DNA of 64,000 nucleotides from Arenivirga flava (GTDB taxonomy: Bacteria; Actinomycetota; Actinomycetes; Actinomycetales; Microbacteriaceae). Below the pieces are notes generated by a model, which saw only the letters and a list, made by a program, of their open reading frames with translations, did not search any database and was not told the origin of the DNA. Where the stretch lies: positions 2,833,809 through 2,897,808 of the forward strand of contig NZ_BSUL01000001.1 of the NCBI RefSeq assembly GCF_030161575.1, in the 5' to 3' direction. Shown here in pieces: positions 3,459 to 63,845 of this stretch. Each line of letters begins with the position of its first letter. Within the stretch, counting starts at the first letter, position 1. A program made the translations under genes and the position numbers.

Positions 3459-3507
3459 GTGAGACGGTTTCCTTCGTCTGGGGGCGAGCTGCGGATTCGT
3501 TGATCAG

Positions 3508-4949: not shown

Positions 4950-5201
4950 GCTCTTCCTTCGACCAGGCAGGCAACTACCAGCCGGATTGCACCGCGGTCG
5001 TCCTGCAACTCTGAAACGGAGGCGCCCAGTGCGTCGAGGAGCCCCCAGCTCGACTGCGCTCAAACTAGCCCAGGCTTCAGACTTCGCGCTCCGCCCAAAT
5101 CTGGGGCAACAGTCCAGACAGCCGGTTCAGCGCGAACTGTCCGCATGGGTCTACGTCATCGGCGAGAACAGCAATGCTCAGCGGATGTGCTGGTCAGCGG
5201 C

Positions 5202-5838: not shown

Positions 5839-6065
5839 GAGGAGGGCCTCCGCAACCCACTCCGCGCCGCGGAACCTGGTCGATCGACGTGTACCGGCTC
5901 TGACCGATCCGGGTGACGGATGACCTCCGTCAAAGGCTACGCGGGGTCGTTCTCGGGCTGAACCCATAAATCGCTTTGGACCAATGGATCATTAATCCCC
6001 GTTTGAGGGGCAGCGTTCCGTTCACCCTGCGGTTATTCTTCCGGCATGGCGGGGGTCAGTCTTCA

Positions 6066-12800: not shown

Positions 12801-13045
12801 CGGAGGGCCTGGCCCGCGACGTCATCCGTGCCGTGCAGCAGGCGCGCAAGGAGGCGGATCTCGACGTGAGCGACCGCATCCGTCTCTCCCTCGGCTCCGA
12901 TGACGACGGGCGCGCGGCCATCGAGCGTCACCGGGAGCTCATCGCGGGGGAGACACTGGCAGTGGACGTCTCCATCGGCGTGGCCCTCGGCGGCGTGCCC
13001 GTGGGCGACGGCAGCAGCGTCGTGATCGGAGTGGTGAAGGCATGA
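9863..13045 (+). CDS. ileS: isoleucyl-tRNA synthetase
   Basis: A 1060-residue class I synthetase that charges tRNA-Ile in the cytoplasm. The HIGH motif appears as [13 protein letters not shown] (HYGH from residue 55) and the KMSKS loop as [13 protein letters not shown] near residues 626-638. The CP1 editing domain lies between about 190 and 420 ([18 protein letters not shown]). Length, the HYGH variant and the lack of a C-terminal zinc finger fit the eukaryote-like type 2 IleRS found in actinobacteria, a type linked to low mupirocin sensitivity. Expression should be set by the T-box upstream. The stop overlaps folC by four bases. Confidence 0.97.
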
Positions 13046-14423
13046 GCGACCTGACGGCAGAGGACCTGTTCGAGGCCGACGAGGCCCGCGAGCGAGCGGA
13101 TGCGGCGTACCAGGAGATGCTCGCGCGTCTCGGCGAGGCGAACCCGCAGCCGCGGCTCGACGCGACGCGCAAGGTCGTGGAGCTGCTCGGCGACCCGCAC
13201 CGCGCCTACCCGGTGATCCACGTCGCCGGCACCAACGGCAAGACCTCGACGAGCCGCATCATCGAGTCGATCCTGCGGGCCACCGGCCTGCGCACCGGCC
13301 TCGTGACGAGCCCGCACCTCGAGCGCGTCAACGAGCGCATCGTCATCGACGGCGAACCTGTCGACGACCAGCGCTTCGCCGACGGCTGGGACGACGTCAA
13401 GCCCTTCATCGAGATGGTCGACGCCGAGCTGACCGCCGCGGGCGAGCCCGCGCTCACCTTCTTCGAGGCGCTCACCGTGCTGAGCTTCGCGATCTTCGCC
13501 GACGCGCCCGTCGACGTGGCCGTGATCGAGGCCGGCATGGGCGGGGAGTGGGACAGCACCAACGTCGCCGACGGCGCCGTGGCGGTCTTCACCCCCATCG
13601 ACCTCGACCACACGAAGCGCCTCGGCTCCACCGTCGAGGAGATCGCCCGCACCAAGAGCGGCATCATCAAGGACGGCGCGATCGTCGTCACCGCGCAGCA
13701 GCGAGCGGATGCGGCCGCCCCCTCGTCGAGGCCGCCGTGCGTCACGGCGCGACGATCCACGCCGCGGGGGAGGACTTCGGGCTGCAGCGCACCGTGCCCG
13801 GCGTCGGCGGTCAGCTCATCACCGTGCAGGGCCGCGCCGGCACCTACGACGAGGTCTTCCTGCCCCTCTACGGCGAGCACCAGGCGCACAACGCCGCGCT
13901 CGCGATCGCCGCGGTCGAGTCGTTCCTCGGCGACGGCAGCGTGGCGCTCGACGCCGACCTGCTCGCGCAGGGCCTCGGCGAAGCCACCTCGCCCGGACGC
14001 ATGCAGCTGCTCGGCATCGAGCCGAGCGTGCTCATCGACGCCGCCCACAACCCGCACGGCGCCGCCGCGCTCGTCGAGGCGGTGCGCGCGAACTTCAACT
14101 TCGAGGAGATCGCGGTCGTCGTCGGCATCCTCGGCGACAAGGACGTGGACGGCATCCTCGCCCCGCTGGCGACCATCGCCACCCGATTCTACGTGACCGC
14201 ATCCGGTTCCGACCGCGCGGTCGAGACCGAGGACCTCGCCGAGCGCGCCGAGCAGGCCACCGACCCCGACCGCGTCATCGCGGTGAGCGACCCGGTCGAG
14301 GCCGTGGAGCTGGCCCGCGAGTGGGCGGATGAGGGCTCCGGCCGCGGCGTGCTCGTCACCGGCTCGATCACGCTGCTGGGCGAGGTGCTGACGGCGGCGA
14401 AGCAGAGCGGATGGGCGCTGTGA
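13042..14423 (+). CDS. folC: folylpolyglutamate synthase / dihydrofolate synthase, single frameshift
   Basis: Mur-ligase-family enzyme that adds glutamate to folates. [12 protein letters not shown] (P-loop) and [14 protein letters not shown] lie in the first frame; [37 protein letters not shown] and [12 protein letters not shown] lie in a second frame. The frames meet at the C-run 13718-13722: one extra C restores a continuous reading [11 protein letters not shown] and a full-length product of about 460 residues. Loss of a base in a homopolymer is more likely a sequencing error than real inactivation of an essential gene. It overlaps ileS by four bases and the next gene by four (GTGA), so it belongs to an operon. 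Confidence 0.9.
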
Positions 14424-16595: not shown

Positions 16596-16632
16596 AGGGG
16601 CCGAGCGGATGCAGCCCCGACCGCCGCCCTCG

Positions 16633-16717
16633 ATCCCGAATGACGGAGCGGATGCGACCCGCCCAAGCAGGGCGGGCTCGCTCCCGCGCTGAAGGCCCGA
16701 AACTCCGTCATTCGGGA
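16633..16717 (+). repeat. 85-bp inverted-repeat element, copy 1 of 3
   Basis: Left arm ATCCCGAATGACGGAG, right arm CTCCGTCATTCGGGA, with about 54 bases between. Further copies are at 16821-16906 and 31537-31621. Confidence 0.85.
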
Positions 16718-16820
16718 CAGGCGGGCGGAGCGCTTCCGCCCCAGTGCAGGTGCAGGTCAGCGCGGCCGCGGAGGGAGAGGATGCGACACCGAGCGGATGC
16801 AGCCCCGACCGCCGCCCTCG

Positions 16821-16906
16821 ATCCCGAATGACGGAGCGGATGCGACCCGCGCAGCTCGTACGGGCAACGACACGCGCTGGAAGCTCGGAACTCCGTCATT
16901 CGGGAT
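16821..16906 (+). repeat. 85-bp inverted-repeat element, copy 2 of 3
   Basis: Left arm ATCCCGAATGACGGAG and right arm CTCCGTCATTCGGGAT, a perfect 16-bp pair. The left flank, including GAGCGGATGCAGCCCCGACC, repeats that of copy 1 at an offset of 188 bases, while the central part differs. Confidence 0.85.
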
Positions 16907-16982: not shown

Positions 16983-17597
16983 TCACCCCAGCAGCAGCCC
17001 CGGCAGGGTCGGGAACTGCACGAGGATCGCGACGATCACGAGCAGGATGTTGACCGCCGGCACCAGCCAGAGGTACGGCCCCGCGGCCTTGAGCGCTCGG
17101 CGCACGCCGGCCGGGGCGGGCAGCGCGCCGGAGGAGGCGCCCCAGGTGAGCGTGGTCCAGAACAGCGGGATCTGCACGAGCCAGACGAGCATGCACCACG
17201 GGCAGAGCGAACCGAGCACGAAGATCGCCTGCGTCTGCAGCCAGGTGACGAAGACCCAGCCGAGCAGCAGGCCGCCGGTGAAGAGCATCCAGAACCAGCG
17301 CTGGAAGCGCGCGCCGGCCAGCAGGGCCATGCCGACGACGATCGGGGCGACGAAGGCGGCGACCCCGAGGAAGGGGTTCGGGAACCCGAACAGGGCCCCC
17401 TGCGCGCTGCCCATCGAGACGCCGCAGTCGACGAGCGGGTTGATGCTGCAGCTCGGGATGTAGGTCGGATCCGCCAGCACCCGCACCTTCTCGATGGAGA
17501 GGTCGAGGGCTGCGATCCACCCGAGCACGCCGCCGACGATGAGCAGCAGGGCGATGCCGACGGGGCGCTTGGCGGGGTGCAGGGTGCTCACGCGCAC
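16983..17597 (-). CDS. vitamin K epoxide reductase (VKOR) family protein
   Basis: A 204-residue membrane protein with about five transmembrane helices. VKOR hallmarks are the loop cysteines in SCSINPLVDCGVSMGS and the CPWC active site in LGSLCPWCMLVWL. In actinobacteria VKOR re-oxidises DsbA-like proteins, passing electrons to quinone, so it probably partners the thioredoxin-fold protein at 15612. In related genomes it sits between ndk and rne, as here. The start is one of two GTG codons (17597 or 17591). Confidence 0.9.
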   Translation of the reverse strand: MRVSTLHPAKRPVGIALLLIVGGVLGWIAALDLSIEKVRVLADPTYIPSCSINPLVDCGVSMGSAQGALFGFPNPFLGVAAFVAPIVVGMALLAGARFQRWFWMLFTGGLLLGWVFVTWLQTQAIFVLGSLCPWCMLVWLVQIPLFWTTLTWGASSGALPAPAGVRRALKAAGPYLWLVPAVNILLVIVAILVQFPTLPGLLLG

Positions 17598-17915
17598 GAT
17601 CCTGCCACCCGCCGCCTGTGCGTCATGCGGCGCACGGCGCGTCGGCGCGTGCGATACTGGGGGCTGTCGTCCGAGCCGCGTTCGGATGACGCCAATGAGG
17701 GCTTACCGGGCAGCGTCCGGGCCAGGTCTGCGACGGGGATCGTCGCAGCGGAGTCGGATAGCCAGTTCCGAGGCGTCGTGAGAGGGCGCTGCGACCAGAG
17801 CCGAGCGCCGGTCGCGAAGACAGAGTTTCATCGAGCGGATCTCGCGAGCGAGGTCCCTGGAGAGCACCCGGAGGGGCGGCGCGGTTGCCCCGAACCGGCG
17901 AGGAGCACGCCAGCG
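17598..17915 (+). promoter_or_regulatory. long structured 5' leader of rne
   Basis: No gene is supported. TGCGATACT at 17650-17658 fits an extended -10 box, which would give an untranslated leader of about 250 bases. A perfect hairpin CTGCGACG/CGTCGCAG is at 17728-17748, and further GC-rich stems follow. Long leaders allowing self-cleavage feedback are known for RNase E genes, so autoregulation is plausible but not shown. The ribosome-binding site is GGCGAGGAG shortly before the ATG. Confidence 0.45.
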
Positions 17916-20710
17916 ATGGTGGAGAACACGCAGAACACGAACAGCAACGACGACGGAACGGCACGCAAGCGCAGGGGCCTCTTCGGCTCGCGCCGCCGCG
18001 CGACCAGCGCGGTCGTCACCCCTGAGGCGGCCCCTCAGGCGGTCGCCCCGGAGACCGAGCCCGCAGTCGTCGCACCCGAGCAGCAGGTGCCCGAACAGGC
18101 CGCGTCCGAGCAGCAGCCCACTGCCCAGGAGGCGCCAGCGGAGCAGGCCCCCGAGCAGCAGCCGGCCCCCGAGCAGCAGCCGGCCGACGAGCAGCGGCCG
18201 GCCGGCGAGCAGGCCCCCGAGCCCGCTCCCGAGCAGCAGTCCGCGCCCGCCCGCAAGCGCACGGCCCCGCGCCGCGCCACGGCGAAGCAGTCCCAGCCCG
18301 ACCTCGTCGAGCAGGCCGAGTCGGCCGCCGCGAGCACCGCGGACCCCGCAGCAGCAGCGGATGCGCCGGCCGCCGCCGACGACGCGTCCGCCGAGCAGGC
18401 TCCCGCGGCGCGCAACCGCCGCGGCTCGCGCACCCCGAAGGCCGCCGCCGAGCAGCCCGCCGCCCAGCAGCCCGCCGCCCAGCAGCCCGCCGCCGAGCAG
18501 CCCGCCGCCGAGCAGCCCGCCGCCGAGCAGCCCGCTGCGGAGACGCCCGCCGAGCCCGAGGCCGCCGCCGAGCAGCCCGCGAAGCAGCCCGTCGTCCTCA
18601 AGGCGGAGTCGACCACCTCCCTCCTCTTCCACGCCCCCGACATCCCCGCGCACCTGCTGCGCCCGGCACCGGGCCGCGGCGAGCGCATCGACGTGCGCGA
18701 CCAGGAGGACGACGACCGCGAGGGCTCGACCTCGAACGTGCGCCGCCGCAACCGCCGCCGCAGCGGCGAGGACTCTGGCCAGCAGCAGAACGACCCCAAC
18801 ACCGTCACCAAGGTGCGCCAGCCGCGCCCCGCGCCCGAGCCCATCACCGAGCCGCAGCGCATCAAGGGCTCGACTCGCCTCGAGGCGAAGAAGCAGCGCC
18901 GCCGCGACGGCCGCGACGCGGGCCGCCGCCGCACGGTCGTGACGGAGAGCGAGTTCCTCGCCCGTCGCGAGGCCGTCGACCGCCAGATGGTCGTGCGCGC
19001 CCAGGGCGACCGCATCGAGATCGCGGTGCTCGAGGACAAGGTGCTCGCCGAGCACTACGTCACCAAGAACCAGAACGTGTCGCTGCAGGGCAACGTCTAC
19101 CTCGGCCGCGTGCAGAACGTGCTGCCGTCGATGGAGGCCGCCTTCGTCGACATCGGCCGGGGCCGCAACGCCGTGCTCTACTCGGGCGAGGTCGACTGGG
19201 AGGCCGCGCAGGCCGAGAGCGACACCAAGAACCAGCCGCGCCGCATCGAGCTCGCGCTCAAGAGCGGCGACCGCGTGCTCGTGCAGGTCACGAAGGACCC
19301 GGTCGGCCACAAGGGCGCCCGCCTGACCAGCCAGGTGAGCCTGCCGGGCCGCTACCTCGTCTACGTGCCGGGCGGCTCGATGAACGGCATCAGCCGCAAG
19401 CTGCCCGACACGGAGCGCGCGCGCCTCAAGAAGATCCTCAAGGAGGTGCTGCCCGAGAGCGCCGGCGTGATCGTGCGCACCGCCGCCGAGGGCGCCACCG
19501 AGGAGCAGCTGACCCGCGACGTCACCCGCCTCAAGGCGCAGTGGGAGGACATCCAGAAGAAGGTCGCCTCCGGCAACGCCCCCGCGGTGCTGCACGCCGA
19601 GCCCGACCTGCTCACCAAGATCATCCGCGACGTCTTCAACGAGGACTTCCAGAAGCTGATCATCGCCGGCGCCGACGCGCACCGCACGATCGAGCAGTAC
19701 CTCTCCGCGGTGGCTCCCGACCTGCTCGACCGTGTCGAGCAGTACACGGGGATGCGGACGTCTTCAGCGAGTTCCGCATCCAGGAGCAGATCCAGAAGGC
19801 GCTGGACCGCAAGGTCTGGCTGCCCTCGGGCGGCTCGCTGGTGATCGACCGCACCGAGGCGATGACCGTCGTCGACGTCAACACGGGCAAGTTCGTCGGC
19901 AGCGGCGGCAACCTCGAGGAGACGGTGACGAAGAACAACCTCGAGGCCGCCGAGGAGATCGTGCGCCAGCTGCGCCTGCGCGACATCGGCGGCATCATCG
20001 TGGTCGACTTCATCGACATGGTGCTCGAGAGCAACCGCGACCTCGTGCTGCGCCGCATGATCGAGTGCCTCAGCCGCGACCGCACGAAGCATCAGGTCGC
20101 CGAGGTCACGAGCCTGGGCCTCGTGCAGATGACCCGCAAGAAGATCGGTCTCGGTCTGGCCGAGTCGTTCACCGACCAGGGCGCGGCCGGCGGCGGCGGC
20201 AACGGCGGCAGCGGAGGCGGCAGCCGGTCGAACGACGGCGGACAGCAGCAGTCGTCGCGCTCGAGCCGTCGCGGCAAGAAGGGCGCGGCCGCGAACGGCC
20301 AGCCCTCCTCGCAGGGCAACGGCGGCGGTAACGGCAACGGGCACAACGGCACGCACGCGATCACCGAGGACGTGAAGAGCGCCCTCGCCCAGATCGCCGC
20401 GAGCACCATCCCGCACGACGAGGCCGCGCCCGCCAAGGCGGGGCAGCCCGAGCAGCCGGCCAAGGTCGTCTTCGAGCCGCGCATCGAGCAGGCGGCCGAG
20501 GCCGCTGTGGCGATCCTCGACATCCCGGTGGCCCGCGCCGAGAGCCGCAGCAAGCGCGTCACAGGCAAGGCCGCCGACGACCTGCTCGGCTCCGTGCTCG
20601 ACGCGCTGCCCGAGCCCAAGCAGCCCGGCCAGGGCCGCTCGCGCTCGCGCCGCGCCTCCTCCAACGGCGTCACCTCGGCCCCGGTCCGCGAGGACTCCAC
20701 CGAGGGTTGA
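17916..20710 (+). CDS. rne: ribonuclease E/G, single frameshift
   Basis: About 931 residues once the frameshift is corrected. A disordered N-terminal region (about 1-340) is rich in Glu, Gln, Pro and Ala and contains tandem AEQPA / AQQPA repeats (DNA 18446-18540). The S1 domain follows (VYLGRVQNVLPSMEAAFVD), then the catalytic part with VDVNTGKFVG and IVVDFIDM, which hold the two metal-binding aspartates. The frames meet at the G-run 19748-19751; one extra G restores YTGDADVFSEFRIQEQ. The usual Zn-link CxxC after TRKKIG is absent; a Gly/Asn/Ser-rich tail follows instead. The enzyme starts mRNA decay and rRNA processing. Confidence 0.93.
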
Positions 20711-21257: not shown

Positions 21258-21329
21258 TTCCGTCGTTAACGGCGGGACGCGGCCGAGCGGATGCGCACGG
21301 CCCGACGAGCGGATGCGCACAGCCCCGAT

Positions 21330-21367
21330 GAGCGGATGCGGGCGGCCGTCCATCCGCGCATCCGCTC
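21330..21367. repeat. inverted GCGGATGC pair before lepB
   Basis: GAGCGGATGCG (21330-21340) pairs perfectly with CGCATCCGCTC (21357-21367). Two more GAGCGGATGCG copies lie just upstream (from 21284 and 21307), so this 85-base stretch is one of the densest octamer clusters in the window. Confidence 0.8.
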
Positions 21368-21452
21368 GCATCGAATCCCCAGCGCCCGCGCGCGCCGCGC
21401 ACGCCGCCGCCCGGCACCTGCGCCCTAGACTGAACCGACGAACGGCGGAGGC

Positions 21453-25769: not shown

Positions 25770-25883
25770 GCGCTGAGGTCCTGCCTGGGCGCGCTGCCGT
25801 GCTGCCCGCGTCGCATGCAACTGGTCCCCCTGCACCCCGGATCCCGAAGTGGGATGCGCGAGGCGCCACGGCTCCTGCCCCGC

Positions 25884-25949
25884 GACTCAGCGTCGAGACG
25901 ACGACTCAGCACCGCGTCCGCTGCTGACTCGTCGCTTCGATGCTGAGTC
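25884..25949 (+). repeat. 66-bp palindromic element, copy 2 of 3
   Basis: Left arm begins GACTCAGCGTCGAGACGACG, right arm ends CTTCGATGCTGAGTC. It lies exactly 180 bases from copy 1 and in the same orientation. Confidence 0.88.
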
Positions 25950-26077
25950 ACCCGGACGCAGGCACGCCGCGACCGCAGGCACGCCCACCCGTCCTCCACC
26001 GCCGAAGCCGCACCCCGCACCCCACCGATCGAGCGGATGCACGCCCGCCGCCCCGCCCCCGGCGCGAGCCTCGAGGC

Positions 26078-26515
26078 GTGAACAGCCCATCCGCTCCAGT
26101 CCCCGGACGCGCCGGTCGCGCGCCCACCGGCCGCGCCGGAAGCGCGCCGCGCAACGACCCGCGGCACGAGCTCGGCAGGCTCGGCGAGAACCTCGCGGCC
26201 CAGCACCTCGAGCGGGCCGGTTGCACGGTGATCGAGCGCAACTGGCGCTGCCCCCTCGGCGAGCTCGACATCGTGGCCCGCGACGGCGGCGAGCTCGTCG
26301 TCGCCGAGGTCAAGACCCGCGCCGGCACGGGCTGGGGCCATCCGTTCGAGGCGATCACGCACACGAAGCTCGCACGCCTGCGGCGGCTGGCCGGGGCGTG
26401 GTGCGAAGCGCATCCGCTCGACTGCGAGGGCCTGCTCGTGCGCATCGACGCGATCGCGGTCATCGCGCCGCGCGGTGCCGCCGCCACCGTCGAGCACCTG
26501 CGGGGCATCGGCTGA
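26078..26515 (+). CDS. YraN / UPF0102 family nuclease-like protein
   Basis: A 145-residue protein with the restriction-endonuclease-like core GRLGENLAAQHLERAGC, GELDIVARDGGELVVAEVKTR. The D and E-V-K residues match the PD-(D/E)xK pattern of the family. The role is uncertain; it accompanies yifB and dprA in many bacteria. A GTG start at 26078 is chosen because it precedes the conserved part by a normal distance; the region upstream is repeat sequence. The stop overlaps the yifB ATG. Confidence 0.85.
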   Translation: MNSPSAPVPGRAGRAPTGRAGSAPRNDPRHELGRLGENLAAQHLERAGCTVIERNWRCPLGELDIVARDGGELVVAEVKTRAGTGWGHPFEAITHTKLARLRRLAGAWCEAHPLDCEGLLVRIDAIAVIAPRGAAATVEHLRGIG

Positions 26516-28041
26516 TGGCGCTCGCGCGCACGACATCGGTGGCCCTGCTCGGGCTGCGCGGAGCCCTCGTCGAGGTCGAGGCCGACCTCAGCGCCCAGCT
26601 GCCCGGCTTCGTGCTCATCGGCCTGCCGGACGCCGCGCTGGGGGAGGCTCGCGATCGGGTCCGCGCCGCGGCCTCCAACGCCGGCTGCCCGCTGCCGAAC
26701 CGCAAGCTCACCGTCAACCTCTCGCCGGCCTCCTTGCCCAAGCACGGCAGCGCCTTCGATCTGGCGATCGCGCTGGCGGCGCTCGCCGCGGCGGGAGCGG
26801 TGGAGCCCGCATCCGTGGCGAAGGTCGTGCACCTCGGCGAGCTCGGTCTCGATGGCCGGCTGCGCCCGACCGAGGGCGTGCTCGCCGCGGTGGCCGAGGC
26901 CGCGCGGCTCGGGGCCGAGACGGTGATGGTGCCGGCAGGCAACGCCGAGGAGGCGCAGCTCGTGCCGGGCGTGCGGATCGTGCCGGTGGTGTCCTTGCGG
27001 GAAGCGGCCATCTGGCACGGTGCCGAGATCGAGTCGGAGCATCAGGAGCCGCTGCTCGCAGCGCCGATCGAGCAGCGCGAGCTCGACGACACCGATCTCG
27101 CCGAGGTGATCGGCAACGAGGAGGCGGTCCACGCCCTGCTCGTCGCGGCGGCTGGTGGCCATCATCTGCTCATGCTCGGCCCGCCCGGCGCAGGCAAGAG
27201 CATGCTCGCCGCGCGGCTGCCCGGCCTGCTGCCCGACCTCGACACCGCGACCGCGCTGGAGGTGAGCGCACTGCGGTCGCTCAGCGGTATCGCCCTCTCC
27301 CGCGGATTGGACCGCAGGCCGCCCTTCGAAGCGCCGCACCACAGCGCCACGGCGCCCGCGCTCATCGGCGGCGGCAGCGGTCAGCTGCGTCCCGGTGCCG
27401 CGGCCCGGGCGACCGGCGGGGTGCTCTTCCTCGACGAGGCGACCGAGTTCCCGGCCAGCGTGCTCGACACGCTGCGGCAGCCGCTCGAGACCGGGCGCAT
27501 CCGCATCCACCGGGCGCGCGCCACTGCCGAGTTCCCCGGACGCTTCCAACTGGTGCTCGCCGCGAACCCGTGCCCCTGCGGCCTCTACGGCGCGCCCGGC
27601 GACGAGTGCACCTGCAGCCCGGCGCTGCGCCGACGCTACCTCGGTCGCCTCTCGGGACCGCTGCTCGACCGCATCGACCTGCAGCTGCGCCTGCGCCGCA
27701 TCACCGCGGCCCAGCTGCGCATGTCGCGCGAGCGGCCCGGGCTCGGCACCGACGCCGCCCGCGCCCTGGTCGTCGACGCCCGGGCGCGCGCCGAGCGACG
27801 CCTCGCGGGTTCCGGCTTCAGCCGCAACAGCGAGCTGCCCGGCTCGTGGCTGCGCGGCGAGGGCCGCCTGCCGCGCGCCGCCACCGCCGACCTCGACCGC
27901 GCCCTCGAGCGCGGCCTGCTCACCATGCGCGGCTACGACCGCGTGCTGCGCGTCGCCTGGACCGTCGCCGACCTCGACGGCGCATCCGCGCCAGGAGCGG
28001 ATGCGGTCGGCCGCGCCCTCGCGCTGCGCCGCCCCGCGTAG
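26515..28041 (+). CDS. comM: YifB/ComM family Mg-chelatase-like AAA+ ATPase
   Basis: A 508-residue protein. The N-terminal Lon-protease-like domain contains GFVLIGLPDAALGEARDRVR and VNLSPASLPKHGSAFDLAIA. The AAA+ core has Walker A LGPPGAGKSMLA and Walker B GGVLFLDEATEF, followed by AANPCPCG and the cysteine cluster of the family. In naturally competent bacteria ComM is a helicase that helps integrate incoming DNA by branch migration. It stands directly before dprA, another recombination-mediator gene. The ATG overlaps the yraN stop. Confidence 0.9.
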   Translation: MALARTTSVALLGLRGALVEVEADLSAQLPGFVLIGLPDAALGEARDRVRAAASNAGCPLPNRKLTVNLSPASLPKHGSAFDLAIALAALAAAGAVEPASVAKVVHLGELGLDGRLRPTEGVLAAVAEAARLGAETVMVPAGNAEEAQLVPGVRIVPVVSLREAAIWHGAEIESEHQEPLLAAPIEQRELDDTDLAEVIGNEEAVHALLVAAAGGHHLLMLGPPGAGKSMLAARLPGLLPDLDTATALEVSALRSLSGIALSRGLDRRPPFEAPHHSATAPALIGGGSGQLRPGAAARATGGVLFLDEATEFPASVLDTLRQPLETGRIRIHRARATAEFPGRFQLVLAANPCPCGLYGAPGDECTCSPALRRRYLGRLSGPLLDRIDLQLRLRRITAAQLRMSRERPGLGTDAARALVVDARARAERRLAGSGFSRNSELPGSWLRGEGRLPRAATADLDRALERGLLTMRGYDRVLRVAWTVADLDGASAPGADAVGRALALRRPA

Positions 28042-28084: not shown

Positions 28085-29241
28085 ATGACCCAGCGACCCC
28101 CGCTCCCGCAGACCCCGGCCCTTCCGGCGCGCCCGGCTCATCCGCCCCCGCGGGCCGCGCCCCCGCCGACCCCGGCCGTGCGGACCCCGACCCCGGCCGC
28201 GCCGCACCGACCGCACCCCGCCCCACCCTCTACGGCCTCGACCGCGACCAGCTCCGGCGAGCGGTCGGCGCCATCCGCTCGGACCACGCACCCGACGAGC
28301 TGCCCGAGCTCGTCGCCCGCGCCGCCTGGACCGGCCTCGCCGAGCCCGGCGACGGCGCGGCCGGCCTGCTCGTGGAGACCCTCGGCGCCGAGCCCGCGCT
28401 GCGACTGGTGCTCGACCGCGCCACTCCCGCGCAGCTCGTCGCCGAGGTGCAGCGCGGAGGGGCCCTGCCCGCGCCCGGGCTCGAGCAGCTGCTCGGCCAG
28501 GGCATCGAGCGCTGGTCGGCCAAGCTCGATTCGCGGCTCCTGCTGCGCTCCCTGCGCAACGCCGCCACGCTCGGTCTGCGCCTGCTCGCACCGGGCGACA
28601 CCGACTGGCCCGAGGGGCTGGACGACCTCGGCGTGCACGGTCCGCTCGCCATGTGGAGCAGAGGCCGCCCCGAGCGGCTCGCCGCCCTCGGCCGCTCGAT
28701 CGCCCTGGTCGGAGCGCGCGCCGCGACCACCTACGGCGAGCAGGTGGCGATGGAGGCCGCCGCAGGGCTCGTCGACCGCGGTTTCGCGGTGCTCTCGGGG
28801 GCGGCGTACGGGATCGACGGCATGGCGCACCGCTCCGCGCTCGCCAGCGAGGGTGTGACGGTGGCGGTGCTGGCCGGCGGCCTCGACCGCTACTACCCGA
28901 GCGGGCACGAGCAGTTGCTGCGGCGCATCGCCTCGGAGGGCGCGGTCGTCTCGGAGCTGCCGCCCGGTGCCGCACCGACCAAGTGGCGCTTCCTGCAGCG
29001 CAACCGCCTCATCGCCGCGATGTCGCAGGCGACGATCGTGCTCGAGGCCGGCCGGCGTTCGGGCTCGCTGAACACCGCCGGGCATGCCTCGGCGCTGGCG
29101 AGGCCGCTGGGAGCGGTGCCGGGGCCGGTGACGAGTCCCGCATCCGCCGGCTGCCACCGCCTGCTGCGCGAGTACGACGCGGTCTGCGTCACGACCGCCG
29201 AGGAGATGGCGGAGCTGGCGCCGCCGGCGCCGCCCGAGTGA
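28085..29241 (+). CDS. dprA: DNA-processing protein DprA, single frameshift near the 5' end
   Basis: Rossmann-fold protein that loads RecA on incoming single-stranded DNA. The core shows SIALVGARAATTYGEQVA, VLSGAAYGIDGMAHRSAL, VLAGGLDRYYP and FLQRNRLIAAMSQATIVLEA. The conserved frame is open from 28075 but has no upstream start except a GTG at 28372 inside the N-terminal domain. The ATG at 28085 is one frame off; one extra C in the run 28097-28101 joins them, giving about 385 residues. The Pro/Ala-rich start (28097-28209) is probably disordered. Confidence 0.88.
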
Positions 29242-38118: not shown

Positions 38119-38159
38119 GGATGCGGCCGGTCGGGGAGCATCCCCGGCCGGCCGCATCC
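38119..38159 (+). terminator. hairpin between rpsB and tsf, built on a GGATGC/GCATCC pair
   Basis: GGATGCGGCCGGTCGGGG pairs with CCCCGGCCGGCCGCATCC with one mismatch. It starts 18 bases after the rpsB stop and probably reduces readthrough into tsf. Confidence 0.75.
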
Positions 38160-39112: not shown

Positions 39113-39137
39113 GCGGATGCGCGGACCCCGCATCCGC
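39113..39137. repeat. inverted GCGGATGCG pair before pyrH
   Basis: GCGGATGCG and CGCATCCGC pair perfectly around a 7-base loop, just upstream of TATCCT (39145-39150), a possible -10 box of pyrH. Confidence 0.75.
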
Positions 39138-43529: not shown

Positions 43530-44235
43530 CCGAGATCCGCGGCGGCGTGGAGCTGCCCGCCCTGCGCGAGGACGTCGAGCTGCGCACGGCCGACGGCCTG
43601 ACGCTCGTCGGCGAGCTGGCCGTGCCCGAGGGGCGCCCGCCGGCCGCGACGCTCGTGTGCCTGCATCCGCTGCCCACGCACGGCGGTTTCATGGACTCGC
43701 ACATCCTGCGCAAGGCCGCGGCCCGGCTGCCCGAGCTCGCCGACCTGGCCGTGCTGCGCTTCAACTTCCGCGGCGTGGAGTCGCCGCGCGGTCGCAGCGA
43801 GGGCGCGTTCGGCGAGGGCGACGACGAGCGGCACGACCTCGCCGCGGCGATGGACCTCGTCGCCGAGCGCGGCCTGCCGCATCCGTGGCTGCTGGGCTGG
43901 TCGTTCGGCACCGAGGTGGCGCTCAAGCACGGCCGCGCGCATCCGATCGTCGGCGCCGTGCTGCTCTCGCCGCCGCTGCACCGCACGAGCGACGCCGAGC
44001 TCGCCGCCTGGGCCGGCAGCGGCGAGCGCCTCGGCGTCATCGTGCCCGAGCTCGACGACTACCTGCGCCCCGCCGAGGCGGCCGAGCGCTTCGCCGTCGT
44101 GCCGGAGGCGCAGCTGACCGGCGTCGAGGGCGCCAAGCACCTGTGGGTGGGGAGACCCAGACCCGTCAGGCGCTCACGGAGATCCTGCGCGTCGTGCGCC
44201 CCGAGGCGCTGCCGCTGCCGACCAGCTGGCCCTGA
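43526..44235 (+). CDS. alpha/beta-hydrolase fold protein, single frameshift
   Basis: About 236 residues once corrected. Family features are LVCLHPLPTHGGFMDSHILR, VLRFNFRGVESPRGRSEG and the nucleophile elbow GWSFGTEVAL. The frame breaks at the G-run 44149-44152; one extra G gives KHLWVGETQTRQALTEILRV and a normal C-terminus. The histidine of the catalytic triad is probably in GAKHLW. Substrate unknown. The ATG overlaps the preceding stop. Confidence 0.85.
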
Positions 44236-44254: not shown

Positions 44255-44280
44255 GCGAGCGGATGCGCGCATCCGCTCGC
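44255..44280. terminator. 26-bp perfect palindrome of GCGGATGC between convergent genes
   Basis: GCGAGCGGATGCG followed at once by CGCATCCGCTCGC. It lies between the convergent hydrolase and AI-2E-type genes, 19 and 9 bases from their stops, and probably serves as a terminator for both. Confidence 0.75.
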
Positions 44281-44289
44281 TCCGACCGG

Positions 44290-45336
44290 CTACAGCTCGT
44301 TCTGCCGCGGCACCCAGACCTGCTTGACGATGATCAGGATCGAGGCGGCCACCGGGATCGCGACGAGCGCGCCGAGCACGCCCGCGAGGGTGCCGCCGGC
44401 GAGGGCCGCGATGACGACGATCGCTCCGGGCACCTTGACGGCGCGGTTCATGATGTTCGGGCTGAGCACGTAGGCCTCGATCTGCATGTAGACGAGGTAG
44501 TACCCGGCCGCCCAGAGCACCGCGGGGAACGGCAGGAAGGCCGTGGTCGCGACGATGATGATCGAGCCGGTGATCGTTCCGACCAGCGGCACGAGCGAGC
44601 AGAGGAAGGCCACGAAGGCGAGCAGCGCGGCGAACGGGGAGCCGAGGATGCTGAGGAAGATGAAGCTCAGCACGCCGTTGCACGCGGCCAGCGAGGCCTG
44701 CCCGACGACGTAGCGGCCGACCGCCTGCGTGACCTGCTCGGAGATCTCGATGAAGCGCTTGCGCTTCGACGCGGCGACGAGGCCGTAGAGGCCGCGCTTG
44801 ATGGTCTTCATCGACGAGGTGAAGTAGAGGGTGAGGATCAGCACCACGATCACGCCGAAGACGCCCGAGCCGATCGCGATGCCGACGGCGAGGATGCCGT
44901 TGCCGACCTCGATGATGTTCTCCGGGTCGCGGAAGAACGCGACCACGTCGTCGCGCACGTTGCCGAGGTTCACCCAGTCGCCCACGTAGCCCTGGGCCTC
45001 GTCGATGAACTCGTCGAAGGTGAAGCTCTGGAAGTAGTCGGTGATCTGCTGGATGAGGCCGGAGGTCTGATTGACGATCACCGGGATCACCGCGAAGAAG
45101 AACCCGACGAGCCCGCCGACGAACGCGGTGAGCACGATGAGGATGGCCGCCCAGCGCGGCACCCTGCGCTTCTCGAGCCAGGAGATGATCGGCTCCAGGC
45201 CGAGCGAGATGAAGAGCGCGACGGCGATGTAGGTGATGATCGTCGCCAGGCTCGACACGGCGCCGCCGATGACGAGGGCGACGAGCACACCGAGCCCGCC
45301 GAGCAGACCGACCTTGAACGCGTTGTTGATCTTCAC
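44290..45336 (-). CDS. AI-2E family transporter (PerM-like)
   Basis: A 348-residue membrane protein with about eight helices. Features are ALFISLGLEPIISWLEKRRV, an extracytoplasmic region with YFQSFTFDEF, and the C-terminal box SPNIMNRAVKVPGAIVVIAAL, typical of the family. Members move autoinducers, sodium/protons or lipids, so no substrate is assigned. The GTG at 45336 follows the ribosome-binding site GAGGAGCA, which decides against the longer reading. Confidence 0.9.
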   Translation of the reverse strand: MKINNAFKVGLLGGLGVLVALVIGGAVSSLATIITYIAVALFISLGLEPIISWLEKRRVPRWAAILIVLTAFVGGLVGFFFAVIPVIVNQTSGLIQQITDYFQSFTFDEFIDEAQGYVGDWVNLGNVRDDVVAFFRDPENIIEVGNGILAVGIAIGSGVFGVIVVLILTLYFTSSMKTIKRGLYGLVAASKRKRFIEISEQVTQAVGRYVVGQASLAACNGVLSFIFLSILGSPFAALLAFVAFLCSLVPLVGTITGSIIIVATTAFLPFPAVLWAAGYYLVYMQIEAYVLSPNIMNRAVKVPGAIVVIAALAGGTLAGVLGALVAIPVAASILIIVKQVWVPRQNEL

Positions 45337-45361
45337 GGACTGCTCCTCGTCGGCCTCGCGG

Positions 45362-47134
45362 TCAGTCCTGGTCGTCGTACTCGCTCGACGAGACCTGCTC
45401 GGCATTGCTCAGCACGCTACGCAGGTTCGTGAAGTATCCCGCGACCGCCTCGCGCTCGATGCGGATCCTGGCCAGGCGCTCCTCCGCATCCGCGACCAGC
45501 GCATCCGTGCGCTCCTGCGCCTCCGCGACGAGCGCGGCGGCGCGGGCCTCGGCGTTGGCGAGGATCTCGGTGGCGAGGTCGTCGGCGCGCTGCCGCGAGG
45601 CCCTCTCGTTCGCCTCGCCGGCGGCCTCGAGCGTGTCGGCCTCGAGCCGCTTGTCGGATGCGCGCCGCAGGGCGTCGGCGAGCTGCGCGTTCGCCTCGTC
45701 GAGGTACTTCTGCGTCTGCGCGACCGCCTCCTGGTGCTTGGCCAGATACTCCTTCTCGGCCGCGTCCCTGCGCGAGGTGAGCTCCATCTCGAGGTCCATG
45801 CGGGCCTGCTCGGTCTCGCGCTGCAGCGCGGCGCGGGCCTCGCCGTCCTGATGCTCGAAGGCGGCGCGGGCCTGCTCCTGCTCGTGCTCGGTGCCGGCCC
45901 GGCGCTCCTCGAACTCGCGCTCGAAGTCGGTGCTGCGCTGCTCGATCTCGGCCTCGAGCGCTGCGCGGCGCTGACCGAGCTCGGCCTCCTGCAGATTGCG
46001 GCGCTGGTCGAGGTCGGCGTGCTCGCGGGTGGCCCGCTCGGCGAGCTCGTTCTCGAGGGCGGTGAGGCGCTCGGCGAGTGCGTTCTCCTGCTCGTTCCGG
46101 CGCTGCTCGAACTCGGCCTCCCATTCCGAGCGGGTGCGGGCGAGCTCGGCCTCCTGCGCGTTCCTGCGCTCGGCGATCTCGTCCTCCTGCTGGTTGCGGC
46201 GCCGGTTGAGGTCGGCCTCCTGCTCGGCGCGGGCCTGCGCCAGCTGCGCCTGCTGCTCCGAGCGGATGCGCGCCAGCTCGGCCTCCTGCTCGCCGCGCGC
46301 CTGCGCGAGCTCCGCGTCCTGGCGGTTGCGGCGCTCGGTCAGCTCCGTCTCCTGCTCGGCGCGCAGGCGGGCCAGCTCGGTCTCCACCGAGGTGCGGGCA
46401 GCCTCGAGCTCGGCCTGCACGTCGGCGCGGCGGCGCTCGACCCCCGCCGTGAACTCGATGCGGTCGCGCTCGGTGTCCCGCGCGAGCTGCGCCGCAGCCT
46501 CGCGGGCCGCGACCGTCTCGCGCTCGACGACGACGCGCAGCTCGGCGGCCTCGCGCTCGGCATCGGAGCGCAGGGTGCCGGACTCGCGGGCGGCGGTGGC
46601 GCGCACCTCGGCGGCCTCCGTGGCGACGGCGCCGCGGATGGCCGCAGCCTCGCGGAGGGCGTCGTTGGTGGCGGTCTCGGCCGTGTCGCGCGAGCGGCGG
46701 AGGGCCGCCTCGCTCTCGGCACGAGCCTGCTCGAGCGTCGATGCGGCCTTCTCGGTGGCCTCGCGCACCAGGCGCTCGGCGTACTCGCGCGCCTCATCGC
46801 GCGCGGCGACGGTCTCCTTCTGCACGGCGGCGCGCAGCTTCTCCGCGTCGATGTCGGCCTGGCCGATGAGGCGGGTCGCCTGCTCCTCGGCGAGGCGCAG
46901 GGTGGTCTCGAGGCGGGAGCCGAGCCCGCTGTAGGTGGGGGTGCCGACCTCGTCGAGCTCGGTCTGCAGCTCGCCGACCTGGGCGCCCAGCTGCTTGAGC
47001 TCCCTGTTCGCCTCCGCCTTCTCGGTGTTGGCCTTGATGAGCTCGCGGCGCAGCTCCTGCATCGCCTTGTCGACCTCGTCGCGGTTGTACCCGCGCACCT
47101 GGATCGAGAAGCTCGACTCGTCTGTGGCCACCAT
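45362..47134 (-). CDS. long coiled-coil DivIVA-domain protein (Scy/FilP-like)
   Basis: A 590-residue protein. The first 40 residues (FSIQVRGYNRDEVDKAMQEL) form a DivIVA-like N-terminal motif; about 500 residues of Ala/Glu/Arg-rich coiled coil follow, with a roughly 14-residue periodicity (RRNEQENALAERLTALE type). Such proteins build cytoskeletal or polar scaffolds in actinobacteria. The ATG at 47134 follows GGAG. It is 25 bases upstream of the AI-2E-type gene on the same strand. Confidence 0.8.
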   Translation of the reverse strand: MVATDESSFSIQVRGYNRDEVDKAMQELRRELIKANTEKAEANRELKQLGAQVGELQTELDEVGTPTYSGLGSRLETTLRLAEEQATRLIGQADIDAEKLRAAVQKETVAARDEAREYAERLVREATEKAASTLEQARAESEAALRRSRDTAETATNDALREAAAIRGAVATEAAEVRATAARESGTLRSDAEREAAELRVVVERETVAAREAAAQLARDTERDRIEFTAGVERRRADVQAELEAARTSVETELARLRAEQETELTERRNRQDAELAQARGEQEAELARIRSEQQAQLAQARAEQEADLNRRRNQQEDEIAERRNAQEAELARTRSEWEAEFEQRRNEQENALAERLTALENELAERATREHADLDQRRNLQEAELGQRRAALEAEIEQRSTDFEREFEERRAGTEHEQEQARAAFEHQDGEARAALQRETEQARMDLEMELTSRRDAAEKEYLAKHQEAVAQTQKYLDEANAQLADALRRASDKRLEADTLEAAGEANERASRQRADDLATEILANAEARAAALVAEAQERTDALVADAEERLARIRIEREAVAGYFTNLRSVLSNAEQVSSSEYDDQD

Positions 47135-53426: not shown

Positions 53427-53431
53427 CCGGT

Positions 53432-53472
53432 CCCGCATCCGCTCGTCGGACGGTCTGCCGAGCGGATGCGGG
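53432..53472. terminator. GCGGATGC inverted pair between convergent genes
   Basis: CCCGCATCCGCTCG and CGAGCGGATGCGGG pair perfectly over 14 bases around a 13-base loop. It lies between the convergent sipW-like and glgB genes, 5 bases after one stop and 6 before the other. Confidence 0.82.
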
Positions 53473-53478
53473 CACCGA

Positions 53479-55646
53479 TCACTCGGCGGGCGCCAGCCAG
53501 AGCGCGCCGAGCGGCGGCAGCGTGAGCACGGCGGAGGCGGGGTGCCCGTCGTGCGCCTCGTCGAAGGCCTGCACGGCGCCGAGGTTGCCCACGCCGGAGC
53601 CGCCGTAGACCTCGGCGTCGGTGTTGAGCACCTCGTTCCACGTGCCGGCCTGCGGCAGCGCGATGCGGGCGTCGTGCACCGGGTTGCCCGAGAAGTTGAA
53701 GACCGCGACGATCGGACGGCCCTGCCGGTCGCGCCGTGCGAAGGCGAGCACCTCGCCGTCGCCGCCGAGCATCTCGAAGCCCGAGCCGTCGTGGTCCAGC
53801 TCCCAGAGCGCGGGCGTCGCCCGGTACAGCGCGTTCATGCGCGCGACCAGGTCGAAGAGGCCGCGGTGCACCGGCTGGTCGAGGATCCACCAGTCCAGCC
53901 CGCGGGACTCGCTCCACTCGCTGGGCTGACCGAACTCCTGACCCATGAAGAGCAGCTTCTTGCCCGGGTGCGCCCACATGTAGGCCAGGTAGGCGCGCAC
54001 GTTGGCGAGCTTCTGCCACTGGTCGCCGGGCATCTTCGTCAGCAGCGAGCCCTTGCCGTGCACGACCTCGTCGTGGCTGATCGGCAGCATGAACTGCTCG
54101 CTGAACGCGTAGACGAAACCGAACGTCAGGTCGTTGCGGTGATGGGTGCGGTACATCGGGTCGACCGCGATGTAGCGCAGGGTGTCGTTCATCCACCCCA
54201 TGTTCCACTTCAGCCCGAAGCCGAGCCCGCCCTGGTCGGTCGGCTGGGTCACGCCGGGCCAGCTGGTGGACTCCTCGGCGATCATCATGATGCCGGGGCT
54301 GCGCTTGTACGCGGTGGCGTTGACCTCCTGCAGCAGGCCGATGGCCTCGAGGTTCTCGCGACCGCCGTACTGGTTGGGCAGCCACTCCTCGCGCGAGTAG
54401 TCGAGGTAGAGCATGCTCGCCACGGCGTCGACCCGCAGGCCGTCGATGTGGAACTCCTCCAGCCAGTAGAGGGCGTTCGCGACGAGGAAGTTGCGCACCT
54501 GCGAGTCGCCGAAGTTGAAGATCTTGGTGCCCCAGTCGAGCTGCTCGCCGCGGCGCGGGTCGCTGTGCTCGTAGAGCGCCTGCCCGTCGAAGTCGGCGAG
54601 GGCCCACTCGTCCTTCGGGAAGTGGCCGGGCACCCAGTCCATGATCACGCCGATGCCCGCCTGGTGCAGCCGGTCGACGAGGTAGCGGAAGTCGTCGGGG
54701 TGGCCGAAGCGGCTCGTCGGCGCGTAGTAGCCGGTCACCTGGTAGCCCCAGCTCGGCGCATAGGGGTGCTCGGCGACGGGCATGAACTCCACGTGCGTGA
54801 AGCCCAGCTCGCCGACGTACTCGATGAGGTGGTCCGCCATCTCGCGGTAGCCGAGGCCGGGGCGCCACGAGCCGAGGTGCACCTCGTAGACGCTCGCCGG
54901 GCCCGTGTGCGGGTCGCGGGCGGCGCGTTCGCGCAGCCAGTCGCCGTCCTGCCACGCGTAGGAGCTCGTGCCGACGACGCTCGCGGTGTGCGGCGGCGTC
55001 TCGGTGTAGCGGGCGAGCGGATCGGCGCGCGTCACCCAGCGCCCGTCCTGCGTCAGGATCTCCCACTTGTAGGTGGTGCCGGCGCCGACGCCGGGGACGA
55101 AGAGCTCCCAGACGCCGTTGCCGTCGAGCCGGCGCATGGGATGGCGCGCGCCGTTCCACTCGTTGAAGGAGCCGACCACGCGCACGGCCTGGGCGTGCGG
55201 CGCCCACACCGAGAAGCCGGTGCCGACGACGCCCTCGTGCTCGCGGTGATGCGCGCCGAAGACCTTCCAGACCTCCTCGTGGCGGCCCTCGCCCCACAGG
55301 TGCAGGTCGAGCTCGCCGATCGTCGGGGTGAAGCGGTAGGGGTCCTCGGTCTCCCAGACCGGAGCGTCGCCGTAGACGGCGCGCACGGTGTACGTCCCGT
55401 CGACCGTGGTGACGAGCTCCCAGAGCCCGTCCTTCGTGTGGTCGTAGTCCGCGGTCGTGCCGTCCTCGAACACGGCGGTGACGCGGTCCGCGAGGGGGCG
55501 CACGACCCGCAGCACCCAGCGCTCGACGCCGTCGGGACCGGTGGCGAGCGGGTGGCGGCCGAGCCAGTCGTGTGGGCGCGGCTCCGCTCCGCCGACGATC
55601 CGGCCGATGAGGTGCTCGTCCAGGGCGGGCGGTGCGATGCGGGCGC

Positions 55647-55650
<4 letters not shown>
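53479..55650 (-). CDS. glgB: 1,4-alpha-glucan branching enzyme
   Basis: A 723-residue GH13 enzyme that puts alpha-1,6 branches into glucan. It carries an N-terminal CBM48 part (FSVWAPHAQAVRVVGSFNEW) and the GH13 boxes VIMDWVPGHF, GLRVDAVASMLYLDYSREEW, MMIAEESTSWPGV and LPISHDEVVHGKGSL. Nucleophile Asp is in RVDAV and acid Glu in AEES. The ATG overlaps the glgE stop (ATGA). With glgE it forms the GlgE-pathway pair; no treS lies beside it. Confidence 0.96.
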
Positions 55651-57630
<1,980 letters not shown>

Positions 57631-57724
57631 GCGCTCAACGTAGCGGAGGGGTGTCGGGGAGGGGAGGGCTCTCACGTCGCATCCATCCGCCGTCCGCCTC
57701 GGGGCCGGATGGCCGCGCCGAGCC

Positions 57725-61915: not shown

Positions 61916-62874
61916 TCAGGCCGTCGGCACGGGGACGCGGTTGAGCAGGCCTTGCACGACGACTTCGAGGAAGTCCATCTCGCCGAGCCCGCTGAGCGAC
62001 AGCGACTGCCGGATGGGCAGCATGCGGTGGGCGAGCACCGGCACCGCGAGCGCGGCGACGTCGTCGGGCAGCACGAAATCGCGGCCGTCGAGCAGCGCGT
62101 GCGCCTTCACGGCGCGCACGAGGTGCAGGGTCGCGCGCGGGCTGGCGCCGAGCCGCAGGTCGGGGTGGTCACGCGTGGCGTGCACGAGGTCGACGAGGTA
62201 CTGCTCGACCGGCGGCGCGATGAAGACGTCGCGCGCCGCGGCGATCATGGCCTGCAGCTGCGCGACCGTCACCACGGGCCGCACCTGGTCGAGGGGTCGA
62301 CCGTGCCGCGGTGCCGCAGCATCTCGAGCTCGGCGGCCACGTCCGGGTAGCCGAGCGAGATGCGCGCGAGGAAGCGGTCGCGCTGCGCCTCGGGCAGCGC
62401 GTAGGTGCCGTCCATCTCGACCGGGTTCTGCGTGGCCACGACGAGGAACGGGTTCGGCAGCTCGTGCGTGACGCCGTCGACGGTCACCTGGCGCTCTGCC
62501 ATCGCCTCGAGCAGGGCCGACTGCGTCTTGGGCGAGGCGCGATTGATCTCGTCGCCGATCACGACGTTGGCGAAGACGGCGCCGCGCTGGAACACGAAGG
62601 CGCCCTGGCGCTGGTCGTAGATCGACACGCCGGTGACGTCGCTCGGCAACAGGTCGGGGGTGAACTGGATGCGGCTGATGGTGCCGCCCACCGCGCGCGA
62701 GAGCGCCTTGGCGAGCATGGTCTTGCCCACGCCGGGCACGTCCTCGAGCAGCAGGTGCCCCTCGGCCAGCAGCACCGTGAGGGCCGTGCGGGTGGCCTCC
62801 GGCTTGCCGTCGATGACCTTGCGCACCTCGTCCAGGATGCGACCGGCCGCCTGCTGGGCTTCGGGGATGTTCAA
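61916..62874 (-). CDS. moxR: MoxR family AAA+ ATPase, single frameshift
   Basis: About 319 residues once corrected. Walker [19 protein letters not shown], Walker [21 protein letters not shown], and [20 protein letters not shown] are in the first frame; [20 protein letters not shown] and [20 protein letters not shown] are in the second. They meet at the run 62293-62296 (CCCC on the coding strand); one extra C restores [13 protein letters not shown]. It starts with TTG, coupled to the preceding stop (TTGA). MoxR proteins act as chaperones for assembly of metal or surface complexes. Confidence 0.92.
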
Positions 62875-63395
62875 CGGGGCCTCCTGGTCAGGATGGGCAG
62901 CGCGATCGCGGCGAGGAGCGCGAGCACGCCGAGGGCGAGGGTCGTGGGGGCGAGCTGCACGAGCAGCCGCGCGAGGCCGGCGGCGGTGTCGTCCTCGGGG
63001 TGGAAGGTCATCTCGAGGAGGCCATCGGGGTTCAGCATCGTGCCGAAGCCCGAGAACTCGATGCGGCGCAGCAGGCCCTGCGACCAGATGCCGCCGAGCA
63101 CGGCCAGGAGGATGAGCGCGGCGCCGAGGGCGTAGAGCGCGCCGATCGCGGGGTTGCGGCGCATGGCGGGCGCTTCGGCCGGCGCGTCGTCACCCGCGCT
63201 CTCGAGCAGCACGATGCGGTTCCCTTCGCGTGCCGACGGTGTGCGCGGCGGCGAGGCGGGGACCTCCGTGTCCGGCAGCGGGCTTCGAACGGATGGGCGC
63301 GGCGGCCGCATCGGAACGGGCGCGGTCGGCTGCCCTCCGCCCGGCTGCGTCCCGTCCGGTCGCTGGAAGGCCGCGGGGTAGCGCGGATCGCTCAC
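62871..63395 (-). CDS. DUF-type membrane protein of the moxR operon
   Basis: A 174-residue protein. A Pro/Arg-rich disordered N-terminus (about 1-75) is followed by a transmembrane helix ([20 protein letters not shown]), a short acidic loop ([10 protein letters not shown]) and a second helix. The GTG at 63395 overlaps the preceding stop (GTGA) and its own stop overlaps moxR. Function unknown; conserved position suggests a partner of the operon. Confidence 0.65.
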
Positions 63396-63724
63396 GCGGA
63401 CGCCCGCATCCGCATCCGCTGCTCCCAGACGACCGCCTGCAGGGCGAGCGCGCCGAGCACTGCTGCGATCCCGGCTCCGATGCACACGGGCACGAGCTCC
63501 GTGGCGAGCTGACCGGCGGCCAGGGTGCGCAGGAACTGCTCCTCGGTCATGCCGCTGGCGAGCTCGGAGCCGTATCCGGCGTACATGCCGAGCAGGTTGT
63601 CCTTCCAGAACAGCGCGTGCAGCACGATCCCCACGGCGACGAGCGCGACACCGCCCGCGTGCAGCGCGATCACCCAGGGGTTCGGCACCCGTCGGCGCCG
63701 GGCGGCGCCCTCCTGCTCGCTCAT
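63392..63724 (-). CDS. small membrane protein, first gene of the moxR operon
   Basis: A 110-residue protein with two transmembrane helices (about 17-39 and 77-97) joined by a loop (FWKDNLLGMYAGYGSELASG). It resembles no family I can name. It heads the operon and overlaps the next gene by four bases. Confidence 0.65.
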   Translation of the reverse strand: MSEQEGAARRRRVPNPWVIALHAGGVALVAVGIVLHALFWKDNLLGMYAGYGSELASGMTEEQFLRTLAAGQLATELVPVCIGAGIAAVLGALALQAVVWEQRMRMRASA

Positions 63725-63814
63725 GGAACCCCCTCCGTGCAGCGTGGTCCCACTCTACGAGCCCCGGGCTGCGGGGTCCGCCCCTCGAACGGAGGATCAT
63801 CCGCTGGACGGAGC

Positions 63815-63845
63815 GGCGGATGCGCGCTGGGGACGCGCATCCGCC
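63815..63845. terminator. GCGGATGCGCG inverted pair, terminator of the sortase-substrate gene
   Basis: GGCGGATGCGCG and CGCGCATCCGCC pair perfectly around a 7-base loop, 8 bases beyond the stop of the minus-strand gene that enters at the window end. Confidence 0.8.

Follow-up and report, generated by a model that had tools for sequence, protein, structure and literature searches.

Analysis of a window of the Arenivirga flava genome (the whole stretch of 64,000 nt under study, C1:2833809-2897808) and of related genomes suggests that the octamer GCGGATGC is the genus form of a strand-neutral word with the core CGGATGC that is found across the family, and that this word may serve as a DNA-uptake (self-recognition) signal, a reading to which we give about an even chance. 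The window holds 64 copies of the octamer against 10.2 expected, and none of 100 dinucleotide shuffles reached as high a count. The complete genome (3.25 Mb in 5 contigs, GC 71%) contains 2,716 copies of the octamer and 4,080 of the core. The octamer is part of a fuller unit with a consensus of approximately CGAGCGGATGCG: around 381 octamers from a 464-kb sample, the favoured bases are A at -1 (0.56), then G both at -2 (0.59) and directly after the word (0.70). The extended form GAGCGGATGCG occurs 132 times in the same sample against 5.1 expected. Most single-base variants at its centre are present in around a few copies or fewer, near neighbours are without enrichment, and the commonest tolerated changes fall on the last two positions with 20 copies each. 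The 10-mer was counted 1,169 and 1,223 times in the two genomes of the genus, with controls at 52 and 69.

The word is not palindromic, as GCGGATGC differs from its own reverse complement GCATCCGC, and its copies are evenly divided between the strands, with 1,351 forward and 1,365 reverse in the whole genome; the reversed control word gives 262 and 275. Strand use is homogeneous across 20 kb stretches (own genome, chi2 32.0 on 35 df; congener G001, chi2 33.3 on 46 df), and within genes 354 sense copies stand against 404 antisense copies. Over the motif-rich genomes of the family the strand difference has a mean of 0.98 standard units, where chance alone would give 0.80, and a maximum of 3.4, so there may be a slight strand skew in a few of them. 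This bears on a polar site of the Chi type (recombination) or KOPS type (segregation), read directionally by RecBCD/AdnAB or FtsK, which would account for a non-palindromic word over-represented in the core genome and for its 5' part AGCGG, which Gram-positive Chi words resemble. Chi and KOPS sites are skewed by replication direction, however, and the near equality of the two strands genome-wide, together with the even strand use along 20-kb stretches of both genomes examined, disfavours such a site; we consider it highly improbable.

Copies inside and outside genes were counted with a home-made HMM segmentation, which was made frameshift-tolerant to cope with the split genes of the own assembly. 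The folC-like (13042-14423) and RNase E/G (17577-20710) genes of the window are each split across two frames. In coding DNA, 255 octamers were found against 74.8 +- 6.5 in synonymous shuffles, a 3.4-fold excess, and the 10-mer AGCGGATGCG reached 90 against 8.8. Outside genes, where atypical genes can be included since the segmentation may call them noncoding, 195 octamers compare with 24 under a second-order Markov model, and 149 copies of AGCGGATGC with 4.0 expected. Among the unpaired copies sampled from the own genome and the congener, 768 of 1,099 are coding. The signal consists mainly of such single copies, which lie for the most part within genes. REP/BIME elements, which are confined to extragenic DNA, were rejected on this distribution.

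The word is also retained between species. In 186 kb aligned between two congeners at 86% identity, 98 of 174 octamers were conserved exactly, compared with 3,351 of the 8,482 copies of 432 permuted words of the same composition, and this despite a lower flank identity around the octamers (0.82 vs 0.87). At a flank identity of 0.7-0.9, retention was 53/103 for octamers and 1,559/4,772 for control-word copies.

These counts permit an appraisal of a mutational or codon-context bias under which the word would have no function. The reversed control word is itself raised in coding DNA (82 vs 43, and 1.5-1.9 times its own synonymous expectation in the genus), so part of the 3.4-fold coding excess may be codon context, and base composition is strongly biased at 71% GC. 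The intergenic excess of AGCGGATGC is far higher, however, near-neighbour words are not enriched, and congener retention exceeds that of words of the same composition. Related genera of similar GC moreover lack the word: Curtobacterium, with a GC of 0.71, has 33 copies against 43 expected. Codon usage as the sole cause was rejected on the synonymous-shuffle and intergenic excesses, and a functionless word is in our estimation improbable.

The family was assigned as Microbacteriaceae by nearest named loci; for EF-Ts these belong to Subtercola (73%) and other members of the family. The 11-mer GAGCGGATGCG, searched over 398 genomes of the family, reaches 900-1,000 copies in the own genus only, so a shorter core was needed to reveal the family pattern; the 10-mer is moderately raised in seven further family genomes (135 to 389). 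The part shared among the sampled relatives is CGGATGC, with counts from tens to >6,000 per genome over the 398 genomes. When one genome per genus was taken (n=85), 54 had at least three times as many cores as reversed control words, another 8 had a ratio in the range 2-3 and 23 stayed under 2; the reversed word is a crude control, as genome G018 has a ratio of 8.2 yet only 12 copies against 7.9 by synonymous shuffle. An order-level sample of 218 genomes placed 15 of 16 family genomes at no less than 3.7 times the control, whereas outside the family an eye count gave 2 of 202 genomes at 3 or more, the highest being 3.5, with the families f4 and f7 mildly raised. Of 13 family genomes sampled, 12 have the core raised 2.7-4.8-fold relative to synonymous shuffles, and G018 stands at 1.5; the same ratio is 1.5 for eight named Curtobacterium loci and 0.6 for eight named Leucobacter loci. 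Among named loci, represented by one region per genome, the core is raised in Subtercola (39 vs 16.5) and Agrococcus (56 vs 29) and not in Curtobacterium, Leucobacter, three Microbacterium, Demequina or the Arthrobacter-group. Core counts jump several-fold between species of one genus in G186, G353 and G356, the first a likely loss in genus g106 and the others gains in g67 and g77; in the order-level sample G186 is down to roughly a quarter to half of the copies found in its genus mates. Such jumps can be used to test what is gained or lost alongside.

Around the constant core, the flanks differ by genus, giving forms such as GAGCGGATGCG, ACGGATGCCG and CGGATGCNC. The own genome (G000) and its congener favour A/G then G before the core and G after it; G002, G026 and G030 favour C, G, C after it, with G007 similar, and G009 has both flank forms. 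C at +2 reaches a share of 0.97 in G012, and G027 and G029 favour G after the core. ACGGATGCC is raised 16-fold in G030 and 9-fold in G009, and stands at about 1 in the own genus. Other repeated words were seen in these genomes: G009 and G030 (L149-L168, L176-L181) have many GGTTGAGGAG and GTTTCGAGAC or GTCTCGAGAC words with a REP-like look, and the congener G001 (L028-L046, L127-L146) has runs of CCCCCCCC at 465 against 38 expected.

A minority of copies form inverted pairs, six of which lie in the window:

53432-53472, no strand assigned: focal hairpin GCATCCGC...GCGGATGC between convergent genes, copies at 53435 and 53462
44255-44280, no strand assigned: inverted pair flanked by convergent genes, predicted stem of 12 bp, copies at 44259 and 44269
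63815-63845, no strand assigned: inverted pair with minus-strand genes on both sides, lying upstream of the ORF at 62871-63800, copies at 63816 and 63837, z -4.6
39113-39137, no strand assigned: inverted pair in the tandem gap tsf/pyrH, copies at 39113 and 39130, z -2.7
21330-21367, no strand assigned: inverted pair upstream of lepB, copies at 21332 and 21358, the weakest fold in this list with z -1.8
38119-38159, no strand assigned: imperfect inverted pair within a 19-bp predicted stem in the rpsB-tsf gap, z -8.8

All six are predicted to form hairpins, and comparison with dinucleotide shuffles gives z scores in the range -8.8 to -1.8. The focal site (53427-53478) has a predicted fold of -41.5 kcal/mol (z -6.4) and lies between a left ORF ending at 53426 and a right ORF with GlgB-like domains ending at 53479; its arm order, with GCATCCGC first, is opposite to that of the other five sites. 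The right ORF (53479-57675) joins a GlgE N-terminal domain to GlgB-type domains in one open frame, which the gene calls split at about 55650. The pair at 44255-44280 is flanked by a plus-strand stop at 44233-44235 and a minus-strand gene of the AI-2E transporter family (44290-45405), and the predicted stem around 38119-38159 starts about 18 nt past the rpsB stop. The pair at 21330-21367 closes a small array with further copies at 21287 and 21309, and the fold of 21322-21372 was matched by 10 of 200 shuffles. The earlier note had listed these six sites as inverted pairs, one of them imperfect (38119-38159), and had placed those at 44255-44280 and 53432-53472 between convergent genes; every pair is present and folds in prediction, and the flanking ORFs agree with that placement.

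When pairs were counted in the arm order GCGGATGC...GCATCCGC and at gaps of 0-25, the own genome had 70 and the congener 73, against 1 and 0 for the reversed controls. Random placement would give about 15 in the own genome, which makes the excess about 5-fold, and the counted pairs contain approximately 140 of the 2,716 octamers (5%). Direct pairs number 62 (own) and 40 (congener), with about 30 expected in the own genome, an excess that is partly due to tandem arrays. One cluster of same-strand copies lies in the window:

16605-16843, plus strand: four same-strand octamers starting at 16605, 16648, 16793 and 16836, in a 51-bp unit that recurs at a distance of 188 bp

At 16605-16655 and 16793-16843 there is a second repeated word, CCGAATGACGGAG, which partly runs on into the octamer and whose 12-mer was found 12 times in 464 kb.

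The position of pairs relative to genes was mapped in samples of the own genome and one congener, with both arm orders included and intergenic gaps of <=600 bp. Of 48 sampled pairs, 34 lie in intergenic gaps, 10 are coding and 4 lie elsewhere; in the HMM segmentation 15 of 20 inverted pairs are intergenic. Convergent gaps hold 5.1 pairs per 10 kb, tandem gaps 2.1 and divergent gaps 1.4. Where a stop lies on one side, 16 of 29 pairs begin <=25 nt from it; the same holds for 22% of positions drawn at random from intergenic DNA and for 71 of 235 single copies. This mapping against stops, which had been proposed as the check on the claim that hairpin pairs sit at gene ends, bore that claim out in these samples of the genus: the pairs exceed random expectation, are mostly intergenic, cluster past stops and are commoner at gene ends. 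In the other genera sampled, inverted core pairs at gene ends were not the pattern, the pairs being mostly coding in G009 (8/10) and G030 (7/7) and absent from the G027 sample.

The word could on these grounds be solely a shared arm of terminator or 3'-end hairpins, its single copies being decayed or chance remains. The concentration of pairs past stops and in convergent gaps is in line with this, as are predicted folds below the shuffled energies. The samples nevertheless hold 1,099 singles against 48 pairs, with the coding singles above synonymous shuffles, and other genera have the core without gene-end pairs. Of 75 flanks on the 3' side of pairs a single one contains TTTT, so the pairs are not textbook intrinsic terminators, though the paired copies may act as terminators without a U-tract. 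A pure terminator was rejected because most copies are single and genic, and we give that explanation hardly any credence.

Two genes linked by the earlier note to competence were matched by profile in the window:

25849-28041, plus strand: comM-like gene with ChlI, Mg_chelatase and Mg_chelatase_C (PF01078, E 9.8e-82)
28372-29241, plus strand: dprA-like gene with DNA_processg_A (PF02481, E 1.3e-64)

DprA is a transformation-linked recombination mediator. ComEC was found in 57 of 59 relatives, including G000 and G001 and motif-poor genomes too, and ComEA adjoins it in the congener. Tad/Flp-type loci number three in the two congeners, one of them in extra copies at contig ends of the own assembly. 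A plasmid-type replication protein (Rep_1, L147:12604-13458) lies about 3 kb from a tad locus at an end of contig C1. Some loci recur at contig ends (C1:38482, C1:3154601 and C2:29215), which, like the split genes, looks like an uncorrected long-read assembly. PilM, which marks type IVa pili, is present in 27 of 59 relatives, but neither G000 nor G001 gave a match. A check for competence genes thus returned ComEC, ComEA (congener) and Tad/Flp loci, the type IVa marker being the part that failed to appear. The filament ATPase (T2SSE) is present in 59/59 relatives, motif-poor ones included; PilM presence shows a weak relation to motif strength (11/16 vs 11/19 at a ratio of at least 3, p 0.057), and G008, motif-rich by the crude ratio (4.3), is without a TadE or PilM match. 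With ComEC and T2SSE near-universal and PilM a weak correlate, gene correlation neither supports nor refutes the uptake reading. The lack of a PilM match in the genus makes it more likely that any uptake would pass through a Tad/Flp pilus rather than a type IVa pilus; the filament of the known DUS receptors is a type IVa pilus, and the receptor is a ComP-like minor pilin.

Scarcity in foreign DNA was assessed on a low-GC island (1674-9532, GC 59% against 73% elsewhere in the window) that carries a DEAD-box helicase gene (6992-9532). The island holds 3 octamers and 3 cores, the other 56 kb of the window 61 and 86 (p 0.03 for the octamers, single island). This is weak evidence that the word may be scarcer in foreign DNA, the comparison having one island at 59% GC and few low-GC3 genes; phage Min1 was left out of it, as its host is not known to carry the word.

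A serious rival is a hyperabundant site comparable to cyanobacterial HIP1 with some other reader, such as an orphan methyltransferase, a nucleoid-associated protein or a repair factor conserved in the family, and a role at the DNA level without uptake. The word is strand-neutral, chromosome-wide, mostly genic and restricted to the family with losses, and it is present where PilM is absent; HIP1, in the accessible parts of PMC4390886, is tied to methyltransferases. HIP1 membership proper was rejected since the word is no palindrome, and a fixed core with genus flanks and gene-end inverted pairs suits uptake signals better. We regard this rival as possible, if rather unlikely.

An uptake signal remains the reading that we prefer, as hyperabundance, strand neutrality, excess both in genes and between them, retention between congeners, family restriction with losses, and dialects together resemble uptake signals. 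The earlier note had proposed that the octamer could be an actinobacterial analogue of uptake sequences, occurring as inverted pairs. The pattern agrees with this in its over-representation, strand equality, gene-end hairpins and ComEC, DprA, ComM and pilus genes, to which the analysis adds a family core with genus flanks. What has changed is that the unit is not the bare octamer (it is the core with flanks, approximately CGAGCGGATGCG), that copies are not mainly paired (95% are not in counted pairs), and that the type IVa marker was not found in the genus. Somewhat below even odds, and therefore put forward tentatively, is the wider proposal that Microbacteriaceae, independently of Neisseriaceae and Pasteurellaceae, evolved an uptake-signal language with genus dialects, which would be read by a Tad/Flp pilus and would be the first in a Gram-positive lineage, some of its copies having been co-opted for termination in some genera. 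A hypothetical surface receptor on the predicted Tad/Flp competence pilus would bind, or prefer, DNA with the word; preferential uptake followed by recombination would let copies accumulate, and flanks drifting along with the receptor would yield the dialects. Head-to-head copies past a stop codon could form hairpins for transcription termination or mRNA 3'-end protection. Counted against the uptake reading are gene-end hairpins that are not general, competence genes that do not discriminate, the lack of a PilM match in G000 and G001, the motif-rich G008 with neither TadE nor PilM matched, the weak depletion in foreign DNA and the raised control word.

In the literature found, specific uptake words are known from two Gram-negative families only, and this word, if the reading is true, would be a third case. 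It would offer, in an actinobacterium with another type of pilus, an independent test of why bacteria tag their own DNA; it would predict natural competence in Microbacteriaceae, for which no report was found in the literature searched; and its dialects would predict which genera can exchange genes. Whatever its role, a family word with thousands of copies and shifting flanks calls for explanation. A search, with subscription papers mostly outside it, returned no literature on such a word in Microbacteriaceae or the phylum, and the literal strings CGGATGC and GCATCCG gave an unrelated match only. The consulted parts of a 2026 terminator survey (PMC13020248) report uptake words in Neisseriaceae and Pasteurellaceae terminators, amounting to up to 22% of predicted terminators in Pasteurellaceae, and do not name actinobacteria.

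Comparison with known systems shows both likenesses and differences. The Neisseriaceae DUS, as described in the accessible parts of PMC3630211, have dialects with genus-specific flanks around a CTG core, and like the word described here they are short, non-palindromic, family-restricted and present in thousands of copies with a constant core (the available text of PMC2346458 gives 'almost 1,500' uptake sequences per genome for Neisseria); inverted copies that form hairpins near gene ends are a further likeness, here in the own genus. Unlike the DUS, the word belongs to another phylum and envelope type, has the core CGGATGC rather than CTG and is known from sequence alone, the type IVa marker was not found in the genus, and gene-end pairs are not present in all motif-rich genera. 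Similarly, the Pasteurellaceae USS (PMC2346458, in part) are hyperabundant, without overall orientation bias, with many genic copies and some terminator-like pairs; the USS is an unrelated word of a Gram-negative host for which uptake has been demonstrated. HIP1, according to the accessible sections of PMC4390886, is likewise a hyperabundant, strand-neutral, chromosome-wide octamer, yet it is palindromic, whereas the word here is not and its flanks differ by genus. A further comparison is with Micrococcus luteus, an actinobacterium that has ComEA, ComEC and Tad/Flp pili but no ComG cluster, and in which Flp pili are required for transformation (PMC6370729 and PMC4322843, accessible parts); the terms 'uptake sequence' and 'sequence-specific' are absent from the available text of PMC4322843.
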